Of a stretch of 64,000 bases of DNA, positions 2,297 to 61,700 are shown piece by piece. The position numbers and the translations under genes are program-made. The stretch spans positions 1 to 64,000 of the IMG/VR virus record IMGVR_UViG_3300025122_005608; one strand, given 5' to 3'. The DNA is from a virus. Below the pieces are notes generated by a model. That model saw only the letters and a program-made list of their open reading frames with translations. It did not search any database and had not been told where the DNA came from. The stretch's first letter is position 1; each line of letters opens with the position of its first letter.

Positions 2297-2325
2297 TTAA
2301 TTTATTATTTTACTAGTGTTATAAT
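2297..2325 (+). promoter_or_regulatory. Weak promoter candidate upstream of the tubulin-like gene
   Basis: In the 72-base gap before the tubulin-like gene there is a perfect TATAAT (2320-2325), with TTAATT (2297-2302) 17 bases upstream as a poor -35. The rest of the gap is AT-rich with no clear hairpin. A good Shine-Dalgarno (AGGAG) follows just before the ATG at 2351. Confidence 0.4.
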
Positions 2326-2350
2326 AAAATGTACTTTTTAGGAGAAAATT

Positions 2351-3526
2351 ATGGTTGACTTAAATATTCCAACTTTAGATATTGAGGATTTTGATCCAGA
2401 TGAGGTCGAAGCCCAACAAGTTGATGAGATTGAAGATGAGTCTGGCGGTGCTTTAACTTATGCGATTATAGGATCGGGACAAGCTGGTGGCAGAATTGCA
2501 AAATCTTTTTATGATCTTGGTTATAAAAAAGCAGTTGCTTTTAACACTGCAGAGAGTGACCTTTCTTTATTAGATTTACCTGATGGACATAAATTTCATT
2601 TAGATTGTTTTGGACAACAAGGTGCCGGCAAAAATCAAGAAAAGTCCCGGGAAGCCTTTGAGGGGAAAAGTCAAGAAGTTTTTAACAAACTGCGTGAAAT
2701 TTTTGGAGAGAAAATTGATCGCATTCTGATTTGTGTGGGAGCGGCAGGGGGCACAGGAGGCGGAAGCGTTTCGCCTCTTGTTGACGTCGCAAAAAGATAT
2801 TTCACATATGTTGGAAAAGAAAACGCTTCTGAGCGTGTTGGCGTTATTGCGTCTTTACCGACTGCAGGAGAGTGTGCTTCCCCCATTGTCGCTAATAATG
2901 CCTATAATCGATTACAGAATTTATGTGCCAGTGCAGCTAATGGTGATTTTGCGCCGCTTATTTTGATAGACAACGATAAAATTAAAAAGCTTTATCCTAA
3001 ACTGACAGTAAAACAATTTTGGCCAACATTAAATAACACAATTGCTGGGTTGTTTCATGTATTTAACGTTCTCGCCACAAAAGATTCCGATTACACCACA
3101 TTTGATCCTGCCGATTATGACTCGATCATGAAAACAAAAGGCTGTATGATTTTTGGCGTTACGACTGTTAAGAATGTTGAGAATGAAACATCTGTATCCT
3201 CGGCTCTTAAAAAGAATTTGGAAAAAACATTATTGGCTAGCGGATTTGATTTAACAACAGCAGAAGGCGCGGCCAGCATTGTTGTTGGGGGAAGTAAATT
3301 GTATGAAGAGGTTGCCGGTCTTATGGATTCTATTGAATATGGTTTTGACACCTTGGCGGCTATTACGGGGGGCGCTATTATTCATAGAGGAATATATGAA
3401 GATCCCAACAAGGAGAAGCTGGTTGCATATACTATTGTAGGAGGTTTGGATGCTCCTCAAAAAAGACTAGAAGAACTTAGGAAATTTTTAAGTAATGACA
3501 ATCGTTGGGTACCCCCCAATAAATAG
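2351..3526 (+). CDS. FtsZ/tubulin-superfamily GTPase
   Basis: 391 residues. After an acidic N-terminal extension of about 35 residues comes the first nucleotide-binding turn GSGQAGGRIA (41-50). The tubulin/FtsZ glycine-rich signature is GAAGGTGGGS (130-139), and a T7-like synergy loop FDPADYD (251-257) keeps the D-x-x-D pair that completes the GTPase site of the neighbouring subunit; the usual Asn two residues ahead is Thr. The loop is followed by MKTKGCMIFGV, as in FtsZ/CetZ. Phage tubulins (PhuZ, TubZ-like) form filaments that position DNA or capsids in the cell; here the sequence looks closer to FtsZ/CetZ than to PhuZ. The C-terminus is basic/polar rather than an acidic tail. It heads a run of five same-strand genes. 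Confidence 0.9.
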   Translation: MVDLNIPTLDIEDFDPDEVEAQQVDEIEDESGGALTYAIIGSGQAGGRIAKSFYDLGYKKAVAFNTAESDLSLLDLPDGHKFHLDCFGQQGAGKNQEKSREAFEGKSQEVFNKLREIFGEKIDRILICVGAAGGTGGGSVSPLVDVAKRYFTYVGKENASERVGVIASLPTAGECASPIVANNAYNRLQNLCASAANGDFAPLILIDNDKIKKLYPKLTVKQFWPTLNNTIAGLFHVFNVLATKDSDYTTFDPADYDSIMKTKGCMIFGVTTVKNVENETSVSSALKKNLEKTLLASGFDLTTAEGAASIVVGGSKLYEEVAGLMDSIEYGFDTLAAITGGAIIHRGIYEDPNKEKLVAYTIVGGLDAPQKRLEELRKFLSNDNRWVPPNK

Positions 3527-3534
3527 GAGAAATA

Positions 3535-3774
3535 ATGGCCGAAGAAGATAAACCAAAATCCTTTCCATGGAAAACAATAGGTTTTTTTGAAACTTTTGAA
3601 AAAGCAGATAAAAAAAGAAATGGGTTGTTAGGGGGCAATACTCCCAACGATCAAGTCCAAGCTAAAGTCAAAAGGTGTGGCCCGGGCGGAAGTAAATTTA
3701 TGGTAAAAGCCCGTTTAAACCCTAAATATGATAAGCCGAAAGAAAAGAAGAAAACCAAAAAGAAGGATAAATGA
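3535..3774 (+). CDS. Small basic phage protein, unknown
   Basis: 79 residues with a very lysine-rich tail. The core has an aromatic/acidic N-terminal part (GFFETFEKADKKRN) and a strand-like VKRCGPGGSKFMVKAR. The F-E-T-F-E-x-A-D-K pattern faintly recalls SPOR-like or small phage modules, but I do not recognise the family. It starts 8 bases after the tubulin-like gene with GGAG before ATG, and its stop overlaps the start of the ClpP-like gene (ATGA), so translation is coupled to both. The basic tail would suit nucleic-acid or acidic-protein binding (inference). Confidence 0.65.
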   Translation: MAEEDKPKSFPWKTIGFFETFEKADKKRNGLLGGNTPNDQVQAKVKRCGPGGSKFMVKARLNPKYDKPKEKKKTKKKDK

Positions 3775-5488: not shown

Positions 5489-5496
5489 TTATTCTT
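5481..5496. terminator. Palindrome spanning two abutting stop codons
   Basis: A perfect 16-base palindrome, AAGAATAATTATTCTT, centred between 5488 and 5489. Its two halves contain the TAA of the plus-strand lipoprotein and the TAA of the minus-strand protease. AT-rich and without a loop, so at best a weak bidirectional terminator; no other terminator exists between these convergent genes. Confidence 0.4.
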
Positions 5497-6301
5497 CTAG
5501 AGATTTTTTCATTTTCACCAATTGCTTCATATAAATATCAATCATGTGAAGACCTATATCCTTCTGTGTTTTATTTTCAATAAAGTCATATAAATCTTTA
5601 TATGTTGGCGACAACGATAAATGGTTGAATGATCGGTAGACTGAATGGATCATGCCTATTAATTCCCCTTTGTGATTCATTATGGGAGATCCAGAACTCC
5701 CCCCAATCGCCGGCAGAGAATAAAAAGCCTTATTGGTCACATCTCCATTATAAAGCCCTTCTTGCAAGGGCGCCATTTCTGCTGCAAAGATACCTAGAGG
5801 TGCTGCTGTGTTATAAGCTCGATCTCCTGGTGTTGGCGCGCCTGGAGCTATTGGAATAGCTTCTTTGTAACAATCCTCTAACCATAATATGCATATATCA
5901 TTTTCAATATCTTGAGCCACTACTTTAACTACATACTCTGTGCCATCGATGGCTTTAGCTTTAAAATTTAAATCATATTGAATTGTTAATTCAGGGTAGT
6001 TTTTCGTAAAGTAGGCGCTGATAAATTTTTTCATCTTGTTATCGTCACACACATGCGCAGCAGTAAGGGCATATGCACCGTCAAATCGATTTTTAATTAT
6101 GGCGCCTGATGCAGTTGAACCCCATTTGTTGATTTCTTTACATTCTTTCTCCTTATCGGAACATACAACAACGTTTAACGTTTTTTCTAATTTTAAAAAC
6201 GAATCCCGTTGAAATACGGAGGGGTTAATATGGTTAGCGCAAGATAGAGTGACAGCACTCATCAGAACAAATATCAAAGAAATTAGTATTTTTTTTATCA
6301 C
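5489..6301 (-). CDS. Trypsin-like serine protease lipoprotein
   Basis: 270 residues from a GTG start; AGGAG lies nine bases upstream on the minus strand and the nearer ATG is closed by a stop. Signal peptide MIKKILISLIFVLMSAVTLS with lipobox TLSC (Cys21). The chymotrypsin-fold triad is visible: His83 in LTAAHVC, Asp135 in ENDICIL and Ser203 in GGSSGSP, with the usual GELIGMIHS after it. It should be a membrane-tethered periplasmic or surface protease. It is the only minus-strand gene in the window and lies inside a lipoprotein cluster, like a moron-type cargo gene. It may act on host envelope proteins or on competing phages (inference). Confidence 0.85.
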   Translation of the reverse strand: MIKKILISLIFVLMSAVTLSCANHINPSVFQRDSFLKLEKTLNVVVCSDKEKECKEINKWGSTASGAIIKNRFDGAYALTAAHVCDDNKMKKFISAYFTKNYPELTIQYDLNFKAKAIDGTEYVVKVVAQDIENDICILWLEDCYKEAIPIAPGAPTPGDRAYNTAAPLGIFAAEMAPLQEGLYNGDVTNKAFYSLPAIGGSSGSPIMNHKGELIGMIHSVYRSFNHLSLSPTYKDLYDFIENKTQKDIGLHMIDIYMKQLVKMKKSLEE

Positions 6302-8086: not shown

Positions 8087-8171
8087 GGGAAAGTGGTGGA
8101 AGTGGTAGACACGACAGACTTAAAATCTGTTGCCAAAATTAGGCGTGGGGGTTCAAATCCCCCCTTTCCTA
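8087..8171 (+). tRNA. tRNA-Leu, anticodon UAA
   Basis: 85 bases fold as a class II tRNA. Acceptor stem GGGAAAG with CTTTCCT (one G-U pair); anticodon stem ACAGA/TCTGT with loop CTTAAAA giving anticodon UAA; a long variable arm with GCC/GGC stem; T arm GGGGG-TTCAAAT-CCCCC; discriminator A. CCA is not encoded. It decodes UUA, a frequent codon in this AT-rich genome, which fits a codon-supply role. It is the only tRNA I found. Confidence 0.95.
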
Positions 8172-8198
8172 CTATATAAGCATAAGGAGAAAATAATA

Positions 8199-39878: not shown

Positions 39879-42800
39879 ATGGCAGCAGGTTATATAATAG
39901 GAAATAATGGCACGTGGTACTTGGCCTCTGAAGAGGAATATTGGGCGAATTCTGCCGCGTTTGTTTCGAGCCTTGATACCAACAAGGGAACGGCCCAGGC
40001 TGTTGATAAAAAATCGGGTCTTTTTAAAATAACTGGTTTCGGTACAGGAATTCCTGTGTCTGAATGGGACGACGGCGCCAAGACTGCAGCCACCAATCCT
40101 GTAACTACCGCTGCTAGAAATGCTATTATTAATGGGTTTATGGGTCTTTTTGGGAATGAAGATTTCTATTTGGGTCTTCTGGAAAAGGGGTATGTATATC
40201 AGCATGCGTGGGATGTTGACATGGTATCTAAAGTGGGTGCCCTTAGCGGATTTGCCCCTCCTGATATCTGGTACAATAAAATTCGAGATTTGATAGAGGG
40301 TTGGGAAACAGAGCAAGCAGTATTGTATCCCAAACTTTTCCCCATGGTGATTGGGCGCCCGGATGCATATGAGAAGGGCAGCTGGAAGGCCGACATGAAG
40401 GACCCAGCGCTCTACCCTCCTCCAAACTACGGCACTAATGCCATACCCTATATTGAAACGGCGAATATTAAAGGCCCACAGGGGAATGACAACCTTCCTT
40501 TTTGGGTTGACGGCGCTTTAGAGTGGTTTTCTAAATATGATGAGACTTTGGCGACAGAATTGGGCTTCGCTAGTAGTCAAAAAACGGGCACCGGCGGTGT
40601 ATACAAAACGGCTCCGACTCAATATGTGTATAAAGCACAATATTTTGTTCGCCTTTTCCACAAAGAGCAGGAAGGGGATAATATTAGTGTTAATTATCCC
40701 ATTATAGATGCTTTACAAAGTGTGGGCTTGATCTTTCATTCTCCGGACGTGGCTACACAAAAGTTATTAAATGACATTAAAAAACAAGAAGAGAAGGAAG
40801 AAGGTGTCGGCGGCGTAGAGGCTAAAAATCCCAACGAGCCCGATACGGATGACATCTATAGTCTGCTAGTAAAATTGAAAGGAACCGACTTAAGCAAGAA
40901 TGCAGAGATAAAAAAGCTTTTACCAAACTCTTTGGCAGGAAGTAAATATGCCAACGCTCTTATAAATCTTCTGGGAGACGACGGCGAATACGATGTAGAT
41001 ACGGACATAATAGTAGGAGCCGTTGACAACCAAGAAATGATGGGAATTGGGGTTGGTGGAATTGGGGTTGGTGAAGGCGCTGGTTCTGTCGCCGGCAAGA
41101 ATTGGTCCTCCTTTTTTAATGAAAATATGCCCGGAGCAGAAGGAGGCTTGCCTCCTTCGCAGTTGCCAAATCCCGACTCCATTCAGGCACTCTATCCGAA
41201 TGCTACTCACTATGTGCTTATTAAGGAAACAACAGGAAATCCTCCGCAAGCAAAAACGGTAACCGATGTATATAATTTGCCGATAGCAAAATCGAAGGCT
41301 GGCAAATTGGCGACCGGGGACGTCGTTATTGTTAAAAAGGAATTTGTGGGGAAGGATGGGAAATGGCATCAAGTAAAGGTGTTGAAAAGTGATTCGTCGC
41401 TCGCAAATTCCAAAAAATCTCCGTTTATAAATTCCAGTTTTTTGCAAAAGCTGCCTGCAACGCCCTATTCTTTGAATAGATCTTACAAATGTAAAGCTGA
41501 TCCAAAGTTCGACACTCCTGATTGGGCCAAGTTAGCAGATAAAGAGGTCTTTTTTGACAAAAGAAAATGCAATCAATGTATCGTTGTGGAGCCAGTAAAT
41601 CCCAAGACGGGAAAAAGATATACAACCATAGTGGGCAATGAACTGGAGGAGGCAAAGCAAAGTGCCCTTTCCATCGGGATTGTTGAGTTATTAAAATTTT
41701 ATAATAAGAGGATGATCATAGATCCTAGCGATGGCGTTAACAAGACTTTAGAAAAGATATCGGGAGCCTTCCAAGGTCCTTATGTGGGCACTAATGACTG
41801 GTATTTAGATAAGCGACCAAGTTCAAAATTAAAAATATTAGTTAAATTTCCTAGTAAATACTTTGACGCTCTGCCGGAAACGCCCGAAGATTTTAGGGGA
41901 GTCGCTCATACTAGTACTGCCACTTTGGCTTTGGAGTCCTCGGATGAAGAAATAGCTTTTGTAAAAGATATACCTTCTTTAAGAACGGTTCACTTTGTTT
42001 TACCGACCTTGAAAGGTAAAATTGACATTCTTTCTAATCTAATGGAGTTTTACGCTAAAAAGATGGATGGATGGCTGGGCAAAATCCCCGGACTGGATCT
42101 CCGTAAAGAGAAGGCTAGGCTGGAAGATTTTCCTTTAGTTTTATTTCAGTTTTTACGCTTGAACGGGATTACTGTTGACGAAAAAGAAGAAGACACTATT
42201 GAACTAGGGTTTGACGACACTTTCGAGCTACAATATGTACTAATAAACAAGACAGGTTTCGCGGCCCCTTTAAGAATAGGCTTTAACAGATTCAAGAGTA
42301 GGGCGCCCATTAATATTACTCGCACTATGGCATACATCTTTTATCTAGACGATCTTATAAGAGAAGCCCGAAAGAAAACTAAAATTGGGTGGATAGAGTT
42401 TGTACAAAAATATACTTTTCCTGTGCCGGAAATACGCCCCGCAAATGTTGCCTCTGCCATCGATTCTATTTGCAGGGGAACCACGCCTACTAAAGAAGAA
42501 TTTGCTGAAAAAATATCTAAGACTTATGACCAAGTAGAAGTCCAGACTACAAGAGGGATGAAAGAAGTTCAAAAGAAACTCGACAGCCCGACGATGAAAA
42601 CAGAGCTAATAAATATTAGACGATCAGCTAAAAGTTTTGTAGGGGATGAGTTTACCAGACAAATTCCAGATTTATTAAAAAGAATAGATGATATCCCCAC
42701 TAATCTAGAGGGGATCAATGAGTTATATTCTTCAGTTTTAAATAAGACTGACATTAAAAATTTGGCTTCTTTGGCGGCTTCTACAGAAATATCTAAAATG

Positions 42801-45800
42801 CCCTCTGCTGACATTTCACTCTCTTTAGGCGAATTTGCCCTCGATGAAATGAGCACGGATGAGGTAACGCAGCTTTACGAGTCATTTTCGGAGGACATCA
42901 AAACGAAAATCGATGTGCGTATAGAAGAAATAGATTTGGGTGTCGATATAGAATCTCCAGAATCTAGTTTTTTCTCGTCTTCTATAGGGGGTGTAGATTT
43001 TAGTTCGATAGATGTGCAAAAATACAAAAAACCAGAAGCTTCTCCATTTCAGAAAAGCATTATGGATAATAGTGAAATCGATTCCCAAAAATTAGGATTA
43101 GAGGAAAAATTTGCACAACCTTCTCATAAAATAAAAAATGCTATAGACTCTCTAGTGGAATATGAGGCCCTCCCTGCTTCTGATTTTTTAAATGGGGTAG
43201 AATTAGTAATACCGGATTATAAGTTAAAATATAAAGATCTTATGAAACCACCGGCGCCAAACATGCCCGACATACCGGCACTTCCATCGGTACCCGATAT
43301 GCCATCTATAAGCGTATCAAAACTAAGTACTGAAATACCTTCTTTGAAGCTACCCTCTATCCCCAGCATCACAATTCCTGATGTGGGAAAAGATTTGATG
43401 AAAATGGCAGATACTATGTCGGATGTGGCTGAAAACTTAAAAAATCAAATAGAAGAAGCAACCTGTACGGCTTTGGTGGGAGTTGTTAAGACAACTTTGG
43501 AAGGGGTTTTTGACTCCCTGTTTTCTAGTGCCGGTTCCGCCGTAGAGACGGCTAGCAATGCGGCATCTCAATACGGGTCTAGAAATTTAAATAGCATGTT
43601 GGAAAGTGCGTCCGGACCCTTCAGTGTGGAAGGAGAATGCGGCGCCAGTAAAGCCTTTGAAGAGTTGGGTATACCTGCATCAATATTTCTAGATCTAGAC
43701 CCCGAGAATTTTCCGGGAGGAAACCCTGTAGCGGCTGGGACACTTAGAACTATGATCGATGATGTGTCTGATGCATTAACGCCGCTAGAAATAGTCGATC
43801 TTCTTGAAGGAACTGCGAAGCCCGAAACAATAAAAGCGGTGGAAGATGTTGTAAGAGATGGCTATCCAAATTACATGTCTCATTTGACCGATACAACAAC
43901 CATCGGAGACGCTTTTAATAATTTGGGGAGATTTATTGACCCCAACTTGATTGATTCAATAAAAAGAGCAGCTAGAGTTTTTCCCAATCCCGGTTCTGGG
44001 CTGTTGTGCGACGGCGACACTAGAAAAGAAGAGGACGAAGTAAGGGAAATGGGCCTTCGCCTGGGGAGTAAAGACCGCGCTAGAAATCAAATTAAAAGGA
44101 GACGACGCCGACGACGCAAAAAATTGAAACAATTTATGGCTCTTTCTAAAAATGCCGATAGTGTTCTAAAAGATATTTTACCACCCACGATCAACGACTG
44201 CGGCGATAAAGTCAGCAGCCTTTCAGATACGGGTCACGGTGTTTTGAGCGGTATGGGAGGGCTTATACCCAGAGATCATGAATCAATTAAGTACATGAAC
44301 AAGAAGGTTATTAAAAACATGTTTGAAATCCCGAATATGCATTTTAATATGGAAGTTAATACATATTTAGATTCTTTGATTAAAGAAACATTTAGACCAC
44401 CGCGACCTAGCGACGATCAATATACAGGCTTTATATCTTCCTTAAAATCTCAAGGCTTAGAGCCAACACCAGAGAATATACAACTGGGTGTGAACAACGA
44501 GCTTGGCACCGCGAACGACGACTTTCTGGAACAAACAAAATTCAATGAAGCGCTCTCACAAAATCAAAAATTAGTTTTACAAGTTGCACCAGATGTTAAA
44601 AATTCATTTTTAAATACTTCTAACTTTTTTAAAAATGAAGAAAGACAATTTGAAATGGTTATGGGATTTATAGAATATGTACTTCAAGAAGGCTTGAGTG
44701 GCGATACTTGGTACCAATCCGCCAAAGAGGATTTAGAAAGTGTATCGTCCCAGCAAGATGCCCTCATCCAGGAAAAGAAAAAAATTGACGCCAACCTTGA
44801 GGACAAAGAGTGGGTGCAGAACGAGATGGGGGGCCCCGCAGGGTACGCTGCTGCGACAGCAAAGCAGGCAGAGTTGGGGCAAGAAATTACAGGATTAAAT
44901 CAGTCCGTCGAGGACGCGCAAAAAACCGTTCAGGAAAAAGCCTCTGCATGGAAAGGCAATAATCCCGGAGATATTTTTGCTGTAAACCGAACAGCCCACT
45001 TGGCATTTGCTAATCAAGGCGTGACAGTTAGTGAGGGCTATATACCCCACAACGATTGGTATTTTGAACTCGATCAACCATCTTCTTTTTCCGTATTGAA
45101 TACGTTTAATACGACAACTATAGAAGGGTCCGGTTCGGTTGTTCCTTTGTCTGAAGTGAATGATTATTCTTTTATTGAGCCGGGTGCTGCACCAGCACCT
45201 CCTTCAGCGTGGTCGTGGCAAGAAGAATCTTTTGCTAATTATATGATCAAAAGATGGGAAGAGGCTCCAATTGCATCTCCCACTTTTGATCCTTTGGTTT
45301 TTAGCAGCTTTTACAAAAATAGGCAAATGACTATTTTTAGTGATTTGGTGAAAAAATTTATGGCTATGGTCTCCCAATCTTCTCTTTTTAATTTACAAAA
45401 GTTGGAAGATGTGGAGTTGGCTACAGATGAGAACGACCCTCCCGCTAGCACGAGGCCATGTCCTGCTCCCAAACGCCCAGGTTTGTTAGATGTTAAAAGA
45501 TATCAAGATATAGTGAGTAATTTGTATGATGAAGCCTGTGGGGATATAAAGCAGCAGCCCACGAAACCCAATGCTTTAGAATCTTCAGGTCTTCAAGGAA
45601 TAGTGTATGCTACTATTCGTTTATATGTCTTAGAGGCGATGTTAAAAACGATCTTTACCCTTTCTAAATTTAGTGCTTCTTCAACAAGAGGAGACAAATT
45701 AATCACAGAGATCATTTTAGAAAACGTTATATTTGGGATGAGGAAACAAGAAGAGAATTATTATAAAGATGTGAGGAAACAGGCAAAGGTTATAACTGAT

Positions 45801-47510
45801 AAAAGACAACAAACGGGCGAAAAACTTTTTAACCCTTTAAGTACAAAAGCCGAACAAGTGGAAGAGGATGAGACGTTGGGAGATCCAAATGATCCACGTA
45901 CTTTATCGGGGATGTCTTCGTTGAGGTTTTTAATAAAAGAGCAAATTGCATTACTTTCTACGGAGATGGACACGCGGTTAAATCCCGGTGTAAAAAATCT
46001 AGATGACTTTTTCTTAGGAGTGAACAAGCAACCTTTTTTAGTCCCCACAGTGGATGTTGTGCGCGATTGGCAAGAGCCGAGAATAGCCGCCACCCAAGGT
46101 TCAAACTTTGACTTTTTAAGTGGAGATACTGGTGGATTTATTTTAGAAAAATATATACGACTTGAAGACGATCCGAATGTAGACCCCTTTGATGCCGGCG
46201 ATGCAGCGGGACTTACAGCTGAAGAAAAAGAATTTGTGCAAACTTGGCGGGACCGCCCGGGCGGCCTAGAAAATCTTTTTGATAAAGTGTGGGGCCCTGG
46301 TGTGGGTGACACTTTTTTATCTTTAGAGGCCCACAAACAAGGTCACTTGTCTGGCGTAGTGAATGTGCATGCTTTGAAGGAATATTTAGAAACACTTCCC
46401 AATAATCTATTGGGACTGGGCTACACGAAAAATCCTAATGTTAATTTAAAGAAAATTATTAAGAATCTTAAATTTGGTGTAAGACTTTGCTATATTCCGC
46501 CGACAAAAACAGCAGCAGACGGACCACTTGAGAATGATGATTCCTTTTTGCATCTCGTTGAAGCAGCCGCCGCCGATAGTGCTGCGCGTGAGGCTATGAC
46601 CCAGAATGCAATAATTGAAAAAACATACTCGCTAGAAGAAAATTGGGGACTTGGGGATATGGACACAGACCCATGGCACGCCATGCACATAAGAGGTCAA
46701 AAAACTTATCCTCTGCCTATTGTAACGGTTGAAGATAGTCTAGGTTTGGATTCTTTAGAAACTTTAACTATTGATGATTTAATTCAAATCTTAGATGATA
46801 GTGAAACTGCGTTTGAGGGTCTCAAAAAGCAGATGATTCAAACTTCTAAATATCAATTTCTTTTTAATTACATTTTTTCGCTTCCTCGAATGTTGTCTTT
46901 GGTATCGGCTTACAATATCCTTTCAATTTCTCGTACTATACCAGGGGCGCAAGATATATTCCCCACGACCAAAGATTCGTTTAAGTCCATGTTTTATACT
47001 CTCACCCCGGAAGCCCCCTGGTATTCGAAACAGGACAAGAAACATGAAGCACTTGGCGGCAATGTCGGTATGATGCAAAAAGATAATAATAGCATGACCA
47101 TGACAGGGCCCTCATCGCTGCCCTCGTCGGCCAAAATTTGTACTAGGGCTGCCTTGATATTGGTTAAGGCAGCCGCACGCCAGATGGACCCACATTATTC
47201 GATGGTCTCGAAACTTGATGATGTCGGCGCCGCACCCTTTGGGATGACGTGGGCATCCGTCCCAGTGTTTTGGCCTGTTAACTTTTCTATCCCTCCCGTT
47301 ATCTATGGGTGGGGGCCCCCATTATTGCCGTTAGGGATGATTGCCTATAGTGCCGGCCTCTTGCCAGGAGAGAAGAAGAGGAAAAAACAGAGAGCAGCCA
47401 AAAAAGCTTTAGCAAGTGGCGAAAAATGTGTAGAGGGGTCTGGTGAAATAATTTTTGATAAACCTATTGAAGATGAGCCCGCAGACTTGGAGTTGGAAGA
47501 TTTTGACTAG
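39879..47510 (+). CDS. 2543-aa virion protein, probably baseplate/tail
   Basis: Starts MAAGYIIGNNGTWYLASEEEYW after AAGG. Visible parts: an SH3-like segment near 480 (KLATGDVVIVKKEFVGKDGK); a run of P-x-[IL]-P repeats (about 1124-1170, MPDIPALPSVPDMPS); a polybasic patch near 1404 (NQIKRRRRRRRKKLK); a coiled coil (about 1614-1690); and near the C-terminus (about 2460-2500) a hydrophobic, membrane-like stretch with Pro/Gly, followed by KKRKKQ. No known domain recognised. Its place between spike and gp25 genes argues for baseplate or hub. The C-terminal hydrophobic/basic part would suit membrane contact or injection (inference). Confidence 0.75.
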   Translation: MAAGYIIGNNGTWYLASEEEYWANSAAFVSSLDTNKGTAQAVDKKSGLFKITGFGTGIPVSEWDDGAKTAATNPVTTAARNAIINGFMGLFGNEDFYLGLLEKGYVYQHAWDVDMVSKVGALSGFAPPDIWYNKIRDLIEGWETEQAVLYPKLFPMVIGRPDAYEKGSWKADMKDPALYPPPNYGTNAIPYIETANIKGPQGNDNLPFWVDGALEWFSKYDETLATELGFASSQKTGTGGVYKTAPTQYVYKAQYFVRLFHKEQEGDNISVNYPIIDALQSVGLIFHSPDVATQKLLNDIKKQEEKEEGVGGVEAKNPNEPDTDDIYSLLVKLKGTDLSKNAEIKKLLPNSLAGSKYANALINLLGDDGEYDVDTDIIVGAVDNQEMMGIGVGGIGVGEGAGSVAGKNWSSFFNENMPGAEGGLPPSQLPNPDSIQALYPNATHYVLIKETTGNPPQAKTVTDVYNLPIAKSKAGKLATGDVVIVKKEFVGKDGKWHQVKVLKSDSSLANSKKSPFINSSFLQKLPATPYSLNRSYKCKADPKFDTPDWAKLADKEVFFDKRKCNQCIVVEPVNPKTGKRYTTIVGNELEEAKQSALSIGIVELLKFYNKRMIIDPSDGVNKTLEKISGAFQGPYVGTNDWYLDKRPSSKLKILVKFPSKYFDALPETPEDFRGVAHTSTATLALESSDEEIAFVKDIPSLRTVHFVLPTLKGKIDILSNLMEFYAKKMDGWLGKIPGLDLRKEKARLEDFPLVLFQFLRLNGITVDEKEEDTIELGFDDTFELQYVLINKTGFAAPLRIGFNRFKSRAPINITRTMAYIFYLDDLIREARKKTKIGWIEFVQKYTFPVPEIRPANVASAIDSICRGTTPTKEEFAEKISKTYDQVEVQTTRGMKEVQKKLDSPTMKTELINIRRSAKSFVGDEFTRQIPDLLKRIDDIPTNLEGINELYSSVLNKTDIKNLASLAASTEISKMPSADISLSLGEFALDEMSTDEVTQLYESFSEDIKTKIDVRIEEIDLGVDIESPESSFFSSSIGGVDFSSIDVQKYKKPEASPFQKSIMDNSEIDSQKLGLEEKFAQPSHKIKNAIDSLVEYEALPASDFLNGVELVIPDYKLKYKDLMKPPAPNMPDIPALPSVPDMPSISVSKLSTEIPSLKLPSIPSITIPDVGKDLMKMADTMSDVAENLKNQIEEATCTALVGVVKTTLEGVFDSLFSSAGSAVETASNAASQYGSRNLNSMLESASGPFSVEGECGASKAFEELGIPASIFLDLDPENFPGGNPVAAGTLRTMIDDVSDALTPLEIVDLLEGTAKPETIKAVEDVVRDGYPNYMSHLTDTTTIGDAFNNLGRFIDPNLIDSIKRAARVFPNPGSGLLCDGDTRKEEDEVREMGLRLGSKDRARNQIKRRRRRRRKKLKQFMALSKNADSVLKDILPPTINDCGDKVSSLSDTGHGVLSGMGGLIPRDHESIKYMNKKVIKNMFEIPNMHFNMEVNTYLDSLIKETFRPPRPSDDQYTGFISSLKSQGLEPTPENIQLGVNNELGTANDDFLEQTKFNEALSQNQKLVLQVAPDVKNSFLNTSNFFKNEERQFEMVMGFIEYVLQEGLSGDTWYQSAKEDLESVSSQQDALIQEKKKIDANLEDKEWVQNEMGGPAGYAAATAKQAELGQEITGLNQSVEDAQKTVQEKASAWKGNNPGDIFAVNRTAHLAFANQGVTVSEGYIPHNDWYFELDQPSSFSVLNTFNTTTIEGSGSVVPLSEVNDYSFIEPGAAPAPPSAWSWQEESFANYMIKRWEEAPIASPTFDPLVFSSFYKNRQMTIFSDLVKKFMAMVSQSSLFNLQKLEDVELATDENDPPASTRPCPAPKRPGLLDVKRYQDIVSNLYDEACGDIKQQPTKPNALESSGLQGIVYATIRLYVLEAMLKTIFTLSKFSASSTRGDKLITEIILENVIFGMRKQEENYYKDVRKQAKVITDKRQQTGEKLFNPLSTKAEQVEEDETLGDPNDPRTLSGMSSLRFLIKEQIALLSTEMDTRLNPGVKNLDDFFLGVNKQPFLVPTVDVVRDWQEPRIAATQGSNFDFLSGDTGGFILEKYIRLEDDPNVDPFDAGDAAGLTAEEKEFVQTWRDRPGGLENLFDKVWGPGVGDTFLSLEAHKQGHLSGVVNVHALKEYLETLPNNLLGLGYTKNPNVNLKKIIKNLKFGVRLCYIPPTKTAADGPLENDDSFLHLVEAAAADSAAREAMTQNAIIEKTYSLEENWGLGDMDTDPWHAMHIRGQKTYPLPIVTVEDSLGLDSLETLTIDDLIQILDDSETAFEGLKKQMIQTSKYQFLFNYIFSLPRMLSLVSAYNILSISRTIPGAQDIFPTTKDSFKSMFYTLTPEAPWYSKQDKKHEALGGNVGMMQKDNNSMTMTGPSSLPSSAKICTRAALILVKAAARQMDPHYSMVSKLDDVGAAPFGMTWASVPVFWPVNFSIPPVIYGWGPPLLPLGMIAYSAGLLPGEKKRKKQRAAKKALASGEKCVEGSGEIIFDKPIEDEPADLELEDFD

Positions 47511-52735: not shown

Positions 52736-55700
52736 ATGCCAAATATTAAAGATCTTTTTGGGAATCAGGAACAATCATATAAGATCTTATCAGCAACAGA
52801 TATTAATGCGCTTACTTCTAGCCACGATGCTGAGTCTTTTGGATATATCGAAGCTTACCAAGAAGAAGACAGGCGCTTTTTCCCAGCAGTTGACTATTCA
52901 CATCCGAAAAATTTCGCTAAATATGGCTCCGCACAAGAATATTATGAAGCATCTATTAAAAGAATTTATCGGATGTATCCCTATGATGGATCCCACAAAG
53001 AAAAGATTGAATGGCACAATTCTTCTTCTTACTTAGACAATTATATATTTGATAACGAATATCCTCGGACAAATGGATATTTGCAGTTTGGCCCTAACGG
53101 AACCTGGAATGGTGGCGCTGGCGGTACCGCCGTAACTGAAGGCGACGAAATATATAAAATTGCGGCCTCCCCTCAATATGTTTCTGTGAAAGGCGGCCCC
53201 CACGCGGCTTCAACCTTGGACCTAGATGACGAAATTAAATCTCAGGCGCCCGATTTTAAATCTAAAAGTGGGCAAAGCTCTTACACTTCTCCAATCGCCA
53301 ACATCTATGATCCCGCCCTCCGACGAAGCACCAACCTTGCTATGGACGGAGGGAGGGGCAACACGGTTGAATTTTGGGTTAAACTGGCCAGTCCAGATGC
53401 CGACAATTCGGATTCATTTGTTTGGTTTGATTTGTGGAATGGCACCGGGGCTGACGAGACTGCTATTGGAAGCGCTAGCTACGGCCGATTTTTTATTGAG
53501 AGCCGGTTTAATACTGCTGGCAATCTTGTAGATAATGCCAATTTTCATTTAACCTATATGTCTGGTACTGATGGGGTTTCACGAGTACCTCTTTTCCGCG
53601 ACCGTCTGTGGTCGATACTGGGAAGCTCTGTAATAGACACTTGGTGGCATGCCGCGTTTAGTGTGAAGAACAGTGGGCTTTCTGGAGGCGACGACGAGTT
53701 AGAAATCAAAACATATGTGGATGGGAAGTTAATTGAAACATATGCTACTGGAACGAGTGTCGGCCAAGTTACCGGGGCCTTAAACGCAAATGTCGGGGCC
53801 TACCGTAATTATCCCACAGACGCTGTAAAAACAGCTGCTATTGCTGCGGGTGTCACTGATTTCAACGGTTATAGCTCAACAACCGGTTCGATGGATGAGT
53901 TTAGATTCTGGAAAGTAAGAAGGAACTCTCAAGAAATTGGGCGCAATTGGTTCACACAAGTCTATGGCGGTACCAACAGCGATGACGCAAATACTACGTT
54001 GGGTGTCTATTATAAGTTTAATGAAGGCATTACAGGCGATAATGATTTTGATGCAGTAGCAATAGATTATTCTGGCAGAATTTCTGACGGAACAATCCAT
54101 AATTATACATCTGCCATGAGGTCAACTGAATCCGCAATGGTATTGGCCAAGGCCGCCGATTCTGAGTTCAAAGATCCTATTTTGTATTCTTTCCAGCCAG
54201 AAGTTGCCAATCTCTTGTCGGACAAAAAGGGCGTGGGGTATCAGTATGACATCACTAATAACGCTTCTATAATAAATAGCTTTCCTGATTGGATAGTGGA
54301 CGACGACCTGGAGGTAGGAGGCGGTAATTTACAAAATTTAGTCCAGATAGTCGCTCAATATTTTGATAATCTTCAAGTTTTAATGGATAACCTAAATCAC
54401 CTTAAAGATATTGAATATACTAAATATTGCGAACTTACAGCGACACCCTATGCCGATGGGGGTTCCCGGTACAATACAATCGCCAGTAACGATCCTGCTT
54501 TCTCAGCGAGTTATTCGGGCAAACCACTACCTTTTAGTAAAAATCTATTAAGTTCAGTGGGCGTCTGCGTTCCAGATATATTTACCGACGCCACGGCCCT
54601 AGAAGCCTTATCTTCGCGAGATGATTATAGAATATACCAGGAAAAAATATTTGATGTTAAAAATCAAATATATCAGAATATTTACAACAATCTCAACTAT
54701 ATTTATAAATCAAAAGGTACCGAAAAAGCTTTTAGAAACTTGGTGCGATGTTATGGCGTTGATCAAGACCTTGTAAAATTAAGTTTGTATGGGGACAACA
54801 TCACCCACAAGATAAAGAACAATTTCCGTTCTGTGGCGGCTAAAAAAACTTATATAGATTTTAATCACTTACAGCGCTTTTCTTCCACCGTCTACCAGAT
54901 GACGTCGAGCGTGGGTCCTTATAGCGCTAATACAAATCGATCTTATATCCCTCGCAATACCGCCCTATCCGGAGGGGGCTATGCTCTAACATTTGAAACG
55001 GAAGTACTTTTCCCCAAAAAATATCCCGGTGGGAGTGATTATGAGCCTTATAATAGCCTTACCGCTTCTTTGTTTGGGGCTTATACTGCTGATCCTTCGG
55101 CTGATATGTGGGAGACAACGTGGGCCTCCCCCCAGACAACCGACTTCCAAGTCTATGCAATCAAAGATGTGCTTGAAAGTAATCGAGAATATGATGGGGA
55201 CACTTATTTCTGGCTTACAAGTTCGGCATTAGGCATTAGTTTAACAAGTAGTTTATTCGATAGTGTTTATGACAATGAAAAATGGAATTTTGCAGTTCGT
55301 ATCAAGCCTAGCAAATACCCATGGGTCAACGCCGTAACGGGCACAACGGAGACCACCGACACACATGAAGTGTCCTTTTACGGGGTCCAGGCTGATTTAG
55401 ACATCATTTCTAATGAATTTAATGTTAGTGCGAGCGTCAATAATCATGTTGCTTCTCTTTTCGTTAGTAGGGACAAACGTATATATTTGGGCGCTGAAAG
55501 AACAAACTTCACTGGAACGCTTTTGGCTCAATCAGATGTTAAAATTTCTTCCACTAGAGTGTGGCTAGATTATTTAACAAATGACGAGATTAAAGCACAT
55601 GCTAGAGACGCTGAAAATCATGGGGTTTTGCATCCTTATAGAAATGCTTTTGTATTTCAAACTAATTCGTCGCCTTATTATATTCCACGGTCTGATCTAC

Positions 55701-58700
55701 TAATGTTGGAATGGGACTTTTCCCAAGTGACCGCTTCAAATCCAGGAGGTCGGTTCCCGTTCCAAGATATATCTTCGGGCTCTTTAGAGGCTAATTATGC
55801 TCCTGGTATTACAGATGATAGATATGGACGTCTTAGAACCGTTCTAAGACAACAATTTGCGGGACGCGGCGATTTATTTCCAGCGAACGATACTAACGCC
55901 GCACAGCGTGAATATATTTATTCGGCTCAACAAATCCCTCCCGAAGTGCTTAACAGTTCTGATATGGTTAACGTGTTGGAGCGCGATGATGTTGTTTTCA
56001 CCAAAGAAAGTCTTCCTATAGAACACTATATTGCTGTTGAAAAAAGCATGTATCAGACAATTTCACAAGAAATGCTGAAAATGTTTGCTACAATACAAAA
56101 TTTTAATACGCTTATTGGTGATCCGGTTAACCGCTATCGGGGTCAGTATAAAGATATGGAGAAGTTAAAAAGTCTTTTCTATGAAAATATTGAGAATTCC
56201 CCGGATCTAGATAAGTTCGTTGATTTTTATAAGTGGATTGACTCGTCTATAACAATGTTCTTAGAACAACTTTTTCCGGCTTCTGCGAACTACGCGAAGG
56301 ACATGAGAACACTTGTTGAAAGCCATGTATTGGAGCGCAACACTTATCGTAGTAAATTTCCAACGTTGGAGATGAAACAGGAAGATCCCGAGAGTTCTCT
56401 TCTGGGAATTAATGAATTAACTTATAACTGGAAATATGGGCACTCTCCCCAAGCCCAATTACAGCGATCTACTGCTGTAGATATATTGAAAGGAGACCAC
56501 ACCGCCACCACGGGTCTTGTTAACCTGCAAATCAATCTGCCCACTTCGATAGGCGGCGGCGGGGTAACTTTGGACCTCGTAGCGTACAACGCTTCTCCTG
56601 GCGCACCGGGCGCTAACGCTATACGAATTTATAGAGGCACTAGTGCAGCGGAAAGTGCGGTCAATATCATAGATGCGATTAACGGCACAACAGATACAAC
56701 GAGGGTTACTTACGGATCTAGCGTGGCCGCCAACTCTACGCAGGGAATAATAGGTATTAGCGCTAAACCAGGAAGCACCTCTAGTAAGATTACCATAACT
56801 GTAGATAATCCGCTGGCAAGTGGGGAGCCTATAGTTTGGACCCCATCCGGAAGAGGCCCTAAGTATTGGTGGCCCGCCGGCGCGATTTGGCCCCCCCCTT
56901 CGTCTAATGTTGGTCTTTTTACTTTTATAATTTCTACCGATGGAGCCCAAGAAACCAATTGCTTGTGGTGGAACCAAAGGGCTGAACGTGATGGTCCTAT
57001 TCTGAGCCAGAGTGTCGCAAGTGTTAATATCGACAGGAATAAAATACTTCATGTTGCCACAACTGAAAACAGCGGTTCTTATTTAAAGAGGGTGCAAGGA
57101 TCCACTTATGTTCTGCGCAAACTTTCACGCCCTTATAAAGAAGGAGTCTCTATTGGAAGGCAGGTTCATGGTGGAGTAAATTATGCCAAAGCAAAGAATC
57201 GGGAATATTATCGATCCAAGTTTAATGAATTTGGAGCCAATAATATTATCAATTTTAACAAAGAAAGTGTGATTACCGACCCGGAAGAAGATTGTAATGA
57301 TAATAATGGGCTCAAATTTAAACAAAAATTAAAATTTGAGATGTGGCCCACGAGAGGAGACTCCACCAAGGCAGACGCTTATAAGGGAAATCTCATCTCT
57401 CCTTTCAACCTATATCTCGCCAATCCTCCTGCTAGCGCTTCGGCTATAGAAGACATGTCCACGGAAGTCGCTTTTGTTAATTTGCATAGTGATACTTACG
57501 GGGTAAGTAATGAAATCCCAATGCAGACGCCATTTACTGAAAAATATGTGGGAGGAAACCAATATAGGCATGTTGGGCTAAATACCTCTTCTTTGACCGA
57601 CGCCTCGACACGACCCGAAGGGTTTGTTATAGATTACCGGCTAGAGAGTATGCACGGTCCCGACTATAACAATCTTTATCGACCTAGAGCAACGCATACT
57701 CGCGAACCCATGGCCAAGCGGCCTTTAAACATTAAAAATATTCGCCAAACAACTGGCTCAACAGTTATTGGCAATTATGAGAAGAATTATGAAGTGGTTC
57801 AAACTTCGGGTCGGAGGATAAATAATAAGTATTTTGTAGAGGTTGAAGGCGTCGGCTTTGGCGAGGTTATTTCAGGCGCAGCGCGCCCATATGGCGGTAC
57901 GAATGAAGTCATTACCGACTCCTTATTTAGAGCCGCCACTAATGCCAGCACACCGGTGTCTCTTGCTCATTTTCCATGGGATGGCTCGCAATTTAAATTA
58001 AGCTTTACTTTTACCGCCGCAGCCGCTGTCGGAGCCCAGCTTGGTATAGGATTTATAGGTGGTTCTGATTATATAGTGTTCATCGCCGTTGATGACGGGG
58101 CACATGGAGATGGCGATAATATTTCCGGCTTTAATTATGCTTTTCAAAGAGGGGATTCATCTGGCACTCCAACTACAGCTGTAGCCGATCATTTAAATAC
58201 TGCCATTGCCCGGGTTCTTCTTACGATGACTTTGCCTAGTTTAAAGGCGCTTACTGTGTCTGTAGCGAGCGCAACTGTCACTCTGGTACAAGATATAAAT
58301 CAGACTACTCTGGCAGCCTCCCCCGAAACTCCATTTTTTATGGAAGGACAACCTTATGTATCGGGGAATTATAACTTCACACTTCCAGATCGCACTAACT
58401 ATGATACTATTTTTGTTGAACGCTTTTCCGCTCCGGGCAGTTTCGAAGTTCTTTCTCGCGGATATATGGATCCCTTTGCTGAAGAATATTCTCCTTATAA
58501 TGCTCTGCCCTTTAGAAATTGGACAGTTCGAGGACCTAGATTTAAAAAGCTTGCCAGCCCCCGTGTGGGGGTGAGTGCAAGCATTTGGTCCACGGGCTCT
58601 CTCGGCCTCCAATCGCTGCTTACTAGACATTGTGGTTGGGGTGGTTATGATTACGAACTACAAACAACTGGTGCTTATCAAAAGACCAACAGAAATCGAC

Positions 58701-61700
58701 TTCGAATGATGGAATCTTCTTCTGCTGGCTATTCTACCGGCTCTCAATTCGATAATTGGTGGGTTCAACACCCAATTCCAAGAAGTGACTTTAATTATTC
58801 GTGGATTACAGCCTCTGTAATGTCCACAAATCCATCGAATGCCTTTGGTTTTGGCTACTTCCCTGCGGATGGAATGGTCTCAAGTTCTGCCGGCGGGTTT
58901 CAGTCGGCTGTTAATTTCTGTAGTGCGAGCGACATTGGAAGTTATGATAGTGGAGGTCCCGATATAACCTATGCTGTGCAAAAGGGTGTTTCTGTTTCGG
59001 ACTTTTTGGTTAACGACTTTATTGGATTAAATTCGAACATCTATGAACCAATCACTTCAAGTGATAACTATTTGGGTTACCCTTTGGGGCTCTTTGCTGG
59101 ACGGAGTGCTGGTGTTGTTTATAACAGTTTCCCTTACCAAGGCGGCCTTATTAACTCTAATACTGTCCCCGCTCCACCCCTTTTAGGCGGTCTGGCCTTG
59201 GTTCTAAACGGCTTGCTTCATCATCGTAATGGCCCTTACGGGTGGCCCTCATGGAAGCAAATTAGAGCCGGCCAGACTGCGGTACCTAGACATCATAAAA
59301 AAAATAACACCTTTTCTATTTCTGTTAGGGACGCGCCACAACCATGGGGGCTTACGGTTTTCCCCAAGATGGGGGGGATGTCCCCTCTGGTAAGAGCAGG
59401 TTTTGATCTTTCTTATAAAGGGCTTGAGAACGCAAGCCATAAAATAACTAATCCGAAAGCTATTTCGCTTGAATGTTATACGGAACCCTTGATCACTTCC
59501 AAATATTTTCCAATGAGGCATAGGCTAGATACTGTTGATGATAATGCTCTTTCTGAACTGGTTATAGACCATACATACACCAATAATTTGGCAAGGTTCG
59601 CTAATCCACACTTGGACAGTAGAATTCAATTTGGCCTTGGCGTGCAAGGGGCACCAGAGCAAGTATATGACCAACTTACAAATATGTATTTGGATACAAC
59701 TTTGCCAGCGACATCAAACCCAATCAAAGCCTTCAGAAATTTAGTTTATAAAGAAGGTGTTTACCCCAAGGCCCAAAATACATATCTGGCTAAGACGAGA
59801 GGTAGAACAAAATACACCGAGACGCCAGAGGTTATTCAGGGTTCTTCGTATATAAAGCCATTAGGACAGCAGCGAACTTTTTGGAAAGATAATTTGGCAG
59901 ACCGACAGAGAACTGGCGATGTTGCGCACAATGCTCTAGATTATGTTATCCGCTCAACTAATGACTTGTTCCCTCCCTATTTGGGGGGTTTGGAATATCC
60001 CCGTGCTAGTGATTTAAGTATATGGCCTTTGGATGTGGGGTCCAGATATTTAGCTGATGATAATGCTTGTTCAAGACTTAGTGGTTCCAATCATGGACAA
60101 TTATCGCTTAACAACACGACAGTAAGCTTAGTGTTGGTTGAGAGTGGGGCAGTCGGAGCCGTCCCCACAGCATCATTTAATTATGAATATTGGAATGATA
60201 TTTTGTTTAAGTTGCCTAGTAACACCCCCGCTAGCTTCCCCCGACAGTCGGGAGACTCTATTTATTCTCCGCTTATTCCTGATTGGGAGACAGCAAAATT
60301 GTCGGGAAAAAATCCATGGTTTAATTCTTATGAGGATTACGCACAAGATATTCGGTGTTTTGGGAAAGAATATACTGTTTTACCAGAATTTAAAATATCT
60401 GATCATATTGATTATTATTTGAACCTTGAAAATTTTCAAGCTAAAAACAATAAGTTTCTATCCTTGGAGGGAGGTGCGTTATCCCAAAGTGCTGCCTCTC
60501 CTAGCGCATCGTTTGACAATGATTTCTTTAATGAATATTGTCATAGCGACTTCTTAAAGCATTTTGAAGTGGTTCAAGAGAGGCATGAGAAGGTGGGTAT
60601 TCCCACCACGCAAATGACTATTAAATGTCATGGTATTAAAAAATTACTACCTTATGACGGTTTTTATCCAATGCTTAGAACTGTGCAGTTGGGTAGCTTG
60701 TTTTCTCAATCGTTCGCCCCTTATTTAATAGGGAGCAATAACTATTCTTCTGATCCCACCACTGAGCGACTAGCTTCGATTATGCAGCCGTTCTTTAATC
60801 CGGGTATTTTATACAATACCATTAAATCTGGATTGGCCGTGGATTGGATGGCCTTTACAGGCACTGTCGGCCCAGCTATGGCAGACACGGGCAGTGTGTT
60901 TTTAGAAAGTGGCAGCATTTCGTCTTCCTTCCGGTTTCCATTTGAATCGTTGGTAGATCCCGGTGCGTATTTACCCACCTTTTCTTTTACAGGTTCTACC
61001 TCCATAAAAGACGCCGCACTTTATTACGCGGACACTTCGAACTGGTGGGGTGAAGCGGCTGTCCTCCCTAGTGGTATTACTGGACCCCACCATATCACTG
61101 GTGCCTACGGAGTGTGGAGAGGGAACCAAAAATTAAATTACACTATGGCAATGCAGAATTTCTTAGGGGAATCGGCCCGATTTTTCTTAAAAGGAAGTAA
61201 ATTTAAAAATATTATTTCTGGACCGGAGCAGAAAATAAAACCTTTTATTTCAGGTGTTACATATTATATGGACTTGGTATGTTATAAAACAGATGATATG
61301 ATTATGTATGAAGGACCACAACACCTCCAAACGACGGCACCTCTTGGCTCTCTGAGCAGACAAGCGCGGGGCATGCATTATGGGCCTCTTTGCCAAGTAA
61401 CCGGCAGCCCTCCGGGATCGGAAGACAATGCCGCTTACTTGGATAATCTTTTGGGCAAATATCGGTATGACCCGGGATTTGCCCCCTACACTCCACCATA
61501 TTTTTATGGAAAATCGGTTTCAACTTTTGCCTTTAAACCCCACGAAGCCAGGTGGTTGGATCCCTTTCAGGAAACCCACGATTTTAACTTAGATGATATT
61601 ACAGGGTATCTTAGAGATCAAGGCACCGTGCATTACAATGAATTTAATTATGATTCTTCCGGAATTTTATTGGATTCGATTGTGGGATCAACAAGAGACG

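Follow-up and report, generated by a model that had tools for sequence, protein, structure and literature searches.

Most of the known phage tubulins come from one of two settings, either jumbo phages that form a nucleus (PhuZ) or prophages that resemble plasmids (TubZ). The window analyzed here, by which we mean the whole stretch of 64,000 nucleotides from a 68.8-kb virus contig that is probably a fragment, carries a gene for a tubulin-like protein (Table 1). This raises the question of which kind of tubulin it encodes, what kind of phage carries it, and what such a phage would do with it.

The gene encodes a predicted tubulin-superfamily GTPase

The 391-amino-acid product matched three Pfam families above their curated cut-offs, namely Tubulin (PF00091; E = 2.5e-8), TubZ-like_C (PF22453; E = 2.8e-7), and Tubulin_2 (PF13809; E = 3.1e-7). 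The motifs GG[TS]GGG[ST] and FDxxDY were kept across an alignment of the phage tubulin family, and residues F251, D252, D255, and Y256 were invariant in 30 aligned family members. With these 30 sequences as input, AlphaFold2 returned a confident model (mean pLDDT of 86, pTM of 0.86), in which disorder was confined to residues 1 to 24 and 383 to 391. Furthermore, purifying selection was very strong, with pairwise dN/dS values of 0.005 to 0.075 for the pairs with unsaturated synonymous change. Together with the at least 128 contigs that encode relatives, these values place the gene far outside what chance would give. Judged from its sequence, the product is a GTPase of the tubulin superfamily in which both the GTP signature and the T7 loop are intact, and the intact, invariant catalytic loops imply a GTPase able to polymerize. 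A preliminary description of this DNA had made the same assignment from GGTGGGS and the T7 loop. The Pfam matches, the invariant residues, and the matching fold are in good agreement with it, and GTP binding does not appear to be lost, the GTP-binding and T7 residues being retained. Upstream of the tubulin gene, a conserved late-promoter element of the TATAAATA type was absent across the relatives.

TABLE 1 Positions of the tubulin gene, its signals and motifs, and related genes
Feature	Position	Strand	Basis
Tubulin/TubZ-like GTPase gene, 391 aa	2351..3526	+	ORF with ATG start; Pfam; AlphaFold2 model; Foldseek
Ribosome-binding site AGGAG, just 5' of the ATG	2340..2344	+	Sequence; same position across relatives
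TATAATA, possible -10 promoter element, 31 bases 5' of the ATG	2320..2326	+	Inferred; not conserved in relatives
Acidic N-terminal extension, residues 1-33, predicted disordered	2351..2449	+	Sequence; pLDDT <50 at residues 1-24
Conserved motif IPTLDIEDF, residues 6-14	2366..2392	+	Alignment of relatives
T4 loop/tubulin signature GGTGGGS, residues 133-139	2747..2767	+	Alignment
T7 catalytic loop FDPADYD, residues 251-257	3101..3121	+	Alignment
Small basic Lys-rich protein, 79 aa, directly 3' of the tubulin gene	3535..3774	+	Neighborhood comparison
Members of the divergent tubulin family	L173:4024-5109; L163:283-1347; L314-L348		Some at the same place upstream of PhoH

The phage proteins form a clade of their own

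A profile search of the PDB gave Bacillus cereus TubZ as the best match (3.2e-21), followed at ranks 2 to 5 by Methanosaeta CetZ (3zid), Haloferax volcanii CetZ1 (4b46), FtsZ, and Bacillus thuringiensis TubZ. Foldseek also placed TubZ (4ei7) at the top, with TM scores of 0.75/0.77 at 3.4 Å, and then FtsZ and CetZ (0.69/0.81 against CetZ1). In the viral structure library, PhuZ-type models reached TM values of only ~0.5, versus 0.75 for TubZ, and the best match was A0A6J5RW92 (E = 4.6e-34, 27% identity). By profile and modeled fold, plasmid TubZ is therefore the nearest known tubulin, followed by CetZ and FtsZ, and PhuZ is far. The preliminary description had placed the protein closer to FtsZ/CetZ than to PhuZ. 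This ordering holds, but TubZ is nearer still.

In the maximum-likelihood tree, the phage proteins formed a single clade (100/100), apart from FtsZ, CetZ (100/100), and PhuZ (100/100), and in the best tree this clade was the sister, weakly (81/78), of six plasmid TubZ proteins. A second tree, with the divergent family described below included, kept FtsZ, CetZ, and PhuZ apart from it as well. Approximately unbiased (AU) tests did not reject joining the phage clade to FtsZ (p = 0.32), to CetZ (p = 0.15), or to PhuZ (p = 0.11). Since none of the joins, including that to TubZ plus phage G, was rejected (p values of 0.11 to 0.35), any deep placement of the clade in the tree is tentative. On the sequences compared, the phage tubulin appears to stand outside every known tubulin group tested here, in its own clade.

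A first scan of IMG/VR recovered 22 loci at 54 to 85% identity, and a profile-based scan extended the family to at least 128 contigs. When 84,980 genomes of bacteria and archaea were scanned with conserved patterns, no close relative came up, and the one confirmed hit was an archaeal FtsZ at 25% identity. Among 50,697 phage records, the only match was Bacillus phage G gp138 (26%). Because its matches outside the family come down to one distant cellular protein and phage G, the family looks viral. The gene is a phage gene, as its source is a virus record and T4-type head genes are found with its relatives.

We also detected a divergent second family of tubulins, in 37 contigs. It is ~27% identical to the first, matches its profile at ~1e-35, and joins it on the tree (84/88). 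Its members also have an acidic N-terminal extension, here with the conserved motif DDFDFVEAY, and end at the last strand without a tail. From these sequences, the divergent tubulins are a sister family with the same layout.

A conserved motif at the N terminus and a lost C-terminal tail

The acidic N-terminal extension, which had been singled out as unusual in the preliminary description, is real: it comprises ~33 residues, is rich in D/E, is predicted to be disordered, and contains a conserved motif. The core of this motif, [IL]PxLx[IL]E (IPxLxIE), was kept in 70 of 70 distinct relatives with an intact N terminus, while the rest of the extension varies. A pattern search of the window and of two long carrier contigs gave one match in each, the tubulin itself, and the idea that the motif is a tag on other phage proteins was rejected on this result.

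At the other end, the window protein stops ~10 residues past the last helix, and most relatives stop at once, so that the usual C-terminal tail appears nearly absent from the alignment and the model. In FtsZ, the tail that binds partners or regulates the polymer is C-terminal. The C-terminal tail of TubZ binds partners (PMC5322520), and that of PhuZ acts in polymerization (PMC3678025). Because the C-terminal tail is lost and the N-terminal motif is conserved, we infer that the N terminus may have taken over partner docking, IPxLxIE replacing the C-terminal tail. The conserved N-terminal motif (peptide NIPTLDIEDFDPDE) offers a practical means of isolating the cargo.

The carriers resemble Far-T4 phages

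The carriers are uncultured viruses of bacteria. In two long ones, of 119.6 and 190.5 kb, homologs of T4 gp17, gp20, gp21, gp23, gp13, and gp18 follow one another in this order. Of 40 T4 genes sought in the 190-kb carrier, only 9 turned up, and 7 of the 12 carrier records examined had Gp23. By capsid and terminase, the cultured phages closest to the carriers were Flavobacterium phage immuto and Microcystis phage Mel-JY01, and Rhodothermus phage RM378, a Far-T4 phage, was also among the nearest by capsid. The window itself has baseplate genes as well as genes for PhoH and a late sigma factor. Far-T4 phages have T4 head genes and carry phoH near the structural genes (PMC4360716). The gene content of the carriers (T4 head genes, few other T4 core genes, PhoH, and RM378 among the nearest MCPs) fits Far-T4-like myoviruses.

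A search for chimallin, suggested in the preliminary description, was run with the phiKZ protein and gave no match in the 12 carrier records, which are fragments. The same query found 4 of 6 PhuZ-encoding controls, including phiKZ itself and one weak match, and missed the other 2. A Pfam search for a multisubunit RNA polymerase proved too weak even on phiKZ. With these controls, the lack of a chimallin match is no more than suggestive; by gene content, the carriers are T4-type phages rather than phage-nucleus phages.

Several other features of the window and the carriers deserve mention. An N-terminal tag like MKLLFENWRKFIKE occurs on several otherwise different proteins, at 48-1775 and 1775-2278 of the window and at L148:13254, L158:14558, L158:16017, and L062 ~3934. 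This type of tag resembles the sequence that directs internal head proteins of T4 to the capsid, and the tagged proteins may be packaged in the head. Positions 9982-33544 of the window, ~24 kb of mostly glycan-type genes in one direction, form a large surface-sugar cluster with glycosyltransferases, a nucleotide-sugar epimerase, an aminotransferase, a UDP-glucose dehydrogenase, and others. Two giant ORFs of 2543 and 3492 amino acids (39879-47510 and 52736-63214) adjoin baseplate genes and are probably tail fibers or adhesin-type proteins. A single tRNA-Leu(taa) gene lies at 8087-8172.

The tubulin gene occurs in several different neighborhoods

In the arrangement seen in the window, the tubulin gene is followed by those for the small basic protein, ClpP, and PhoH. 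The largest sub-lineage has the tubulin gene instead in a cluster ~2.5 kb upstream of the terminase gene (27 of 28 contigs with enough sequence), and two small ORFs precede it, at least one of which has an apparent membrane segment. In other contigs, it sits beside a UvsX-like recombinase or beside a RuvC-like and SbcC-like pair, the latter two names having been given by reading the sequence. No neighbor common to all carriers was found across the neighborhoods examined. The presence of the gene in several quite different neighborhoods suggests that the tubulin is kept for an activity of its own.

Of the 33 loci with window-type PhoH relatives and enough sequence upstream, 3 carry a tubulin at this place, and it is of the divergent family. 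In the window-type lineage, the carriage of a tubulin is therefore patchy, and the gene is not essential in it. Relatives of the basic ORF downstream of the window tubulin also adjoin the divergent tubulin family. They were found as well in 17 loci without a tubulin in the stretch examined, and a dedicated partner was rejected on this ground; from its distribution, the basic protein is a neighbor rather than a proven partner.

We also observed a trypsin-like protease with a signal-peptide-like start at 5489-6301 (- strand) of the window. In 21 of 103 loci (some of them duplicates of one contig), such a protease lies close to tubulin and PhoH. In phage G, gp137 (99 aa, L024:7725-8021) lies directly upstream of the tubulin gp138, at the place expected for TubR, and the two may be a genuine TubRZ pair.

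A proposed filament in phages without signs of a phage nucleus

We propose that Far-T4-like myoviruses make a GTP-dependent, self-polymerizing tubulin of their own clade. Monomers would stack head to tail, the T7 loop of one completing the GTPase site of the next, and the resulting dynamic filament would position or move the DNA of the phage or newly built heads inside infected cells, with no phage nucleus. The N-terminal IPxLxIE would dock a cargo, an adaptor, or a membrane partner, which is the job of the C-terminal tail in FtsZ, TubZ, and PhuZ. PhuZ and TubZ provide a precedent for tubulins that move the DNA of a phage or a plasmid (PMC4244570, PMC5322520), and it is by analogy with them that we assign a role in positioning DNA or heads to the filament. 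The fold, the catalytic loops, the dN/dS values, the fixed place in 27 of 28 contigs, the variety of neighborhoods, the missing C-terminal tail with the conserved N-terminal motif, and the layout of the sister family speak for such a filament. Against it stand the lack of an identified cargo or adaptor, the lack of a neighbor present in all carriers, the patchy carriage in the window-type lineage, and the tentative deep phylogeny. In addition, nothing in the T4-type paradigm is known to call for a phage cytoskeleton. Taking both sides together, we give about an even chance to a self-polymerizing filament whose N terminus docks cargo and whose role is to position phage DNA or heads.

Alternatively, the phage tubulin could hijack host division, by co-polymerizing with FtsZ, by titrating it, or by mimicking its C-terminal peptide, so that the infected cell stays undivided. 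The C-terminal peptide of FtsZ (DIPxFL) recruits division proteins, and the N-terminal DIPTL/NIPTL of the phage proteins resembles the start of this peptide in the aligned Escherichia coli and Bacillus velezensis sequences (LDIPAFL/LDIPTFL), which, together with membership in the superfamily, counts in favor of the idea. However, the likeness is weak: it extends over 4 to 5 residues, and neither the Phe of the FtsZ peptide nor the basic residue after it is present. Moreover, ~20% identity to FtsZ structures makes co-polymerization unlikely, and a mere decoy would not need a full catalytic apparatus under very strong selection. We thus regard a hijack of host division as unlikely.

A plasmid-type partition system (TubRZ-tubC), by which an extrachromosomal prophage would segregate its genome, seems more doubtful still. 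It has a precedent in the clostridial phage c-st, an extrachromosomal prophage whose genome is segregated by TubRZ-tubC, and TubZ is indeed the nearest tubulin by profile and fold. However, in tubZ plasmids and in phage G, the tubulin gene is directly preceded by a small ORF of 99 to 120 amino acids, and no comparable DNA-binding-type, TubR-like ORF was recognized beside the phage tubulin in the contexts examined, where membrane-type or unrelated ORFs were found instead. Iterons of the tubC type were not found near the gene either, and a partition cassette was rejected on these two grounds. In addition, ten carrier records contained no tyrosine integrase, the gene content is T4-type, and the tail by which TubZ binds its partners (PMC5322520) is missing.

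A PhuZ-type spindle of a nucleus-forming phage is very improbable: the protein is a phage tubulin, but it belongs to a different clade, its model is distant from those of PhuZ type, and the carriers have a T4-type head module and a late sigma factor instead. This reading is largely refuted, and the chimallin search, whose query misses diverged controls, is supportive only. Finally, a recently captured host FtsZ or CetZ kept as an accessory gene, a transfer that the preliminary description had also considered, has family membership alone in its favor and is hardly credible given the 84,980-genome scan and the well-supported clade, found here in viral contigs only.

Returning to the proposed filament, the sequence data describe a genuine phage tubulin that is conserved, forms a branch by itself, and is fixed in one T4-type sub-lineage, without signs of a phage nucleus. 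This suggests that phages without a phage nucleus, too, build a cytoskeleton of their own. We more tentatively put forward, as a possibility somewhat short of probable, that Far-T4 phages hold a previously undescribed tubulin branch of two sister families, in which the tail that binds partners has shifted from the C to the N terminus and which, as one of the core genes of an abundant lineage, provides a cytoskeleton without a phage nucleus. A T4-type lineage with a fixed tubulin of a kind that the scanned cellular genomes lack would mean that a cytoskeleton can be of use to a phage in the absence of both nucleus and partition, and the role of the filament would become separable from the phage nucleus.

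Comparison with known tubulins

The best viral structure match, A0A6J5RW92, is annotated as an "FtsZ Cell division GTPase" of an uncultured Caudovirales phage, and its comparison here is by annotation and structure match only. FtsZ shares the GTPase core and the T7 Asp residues with the phage protein, which by alignment has neither the C-terminal linker nor the C-terminal peptide of FtsZ, has DN instead of PN in the T6 motif, and falls outside the FtsZ clade, in phages only. Archaeal CetZ has similar T1 and T2 loops and provides the second and third PDB sequence matches, but it forms its own clade and its T6 and T7 details are unlike those of the phage protein.

PhuZ of the Chimalliviridae (phiKZ, 201phi2-1, and RAY) is likewise a phage-encoded tubulin-superfamily GTPase. 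It differs in its separate clade and low structural similarity, in the lack of a chimallin match in the carriers studied here, and in its acidic C-terminal tail, which acts in polymerization (PMC3678025) and has no counterpart in the phage protein described here.

The closest known system in profile and fold is TubZ. It is the tubulin of type III plasmid partition, present on Bacillus plasmids, in the clostridial phage c-st, and probably as gp138 in phage G. Identity is ~20%, and the phage protein differs in its missing C-terminal tail and its N-terminal acidic motif, as does its gene in the lack of an upstream small TubR-like ORF and of iterons and in its T4-type carriers. Nevertheless, both have the TubZ-like_C domain, [IV]DN[DEQ]K at T6, an FDxx[DE] T7 loop, and a GAG[KR] T3 loop.
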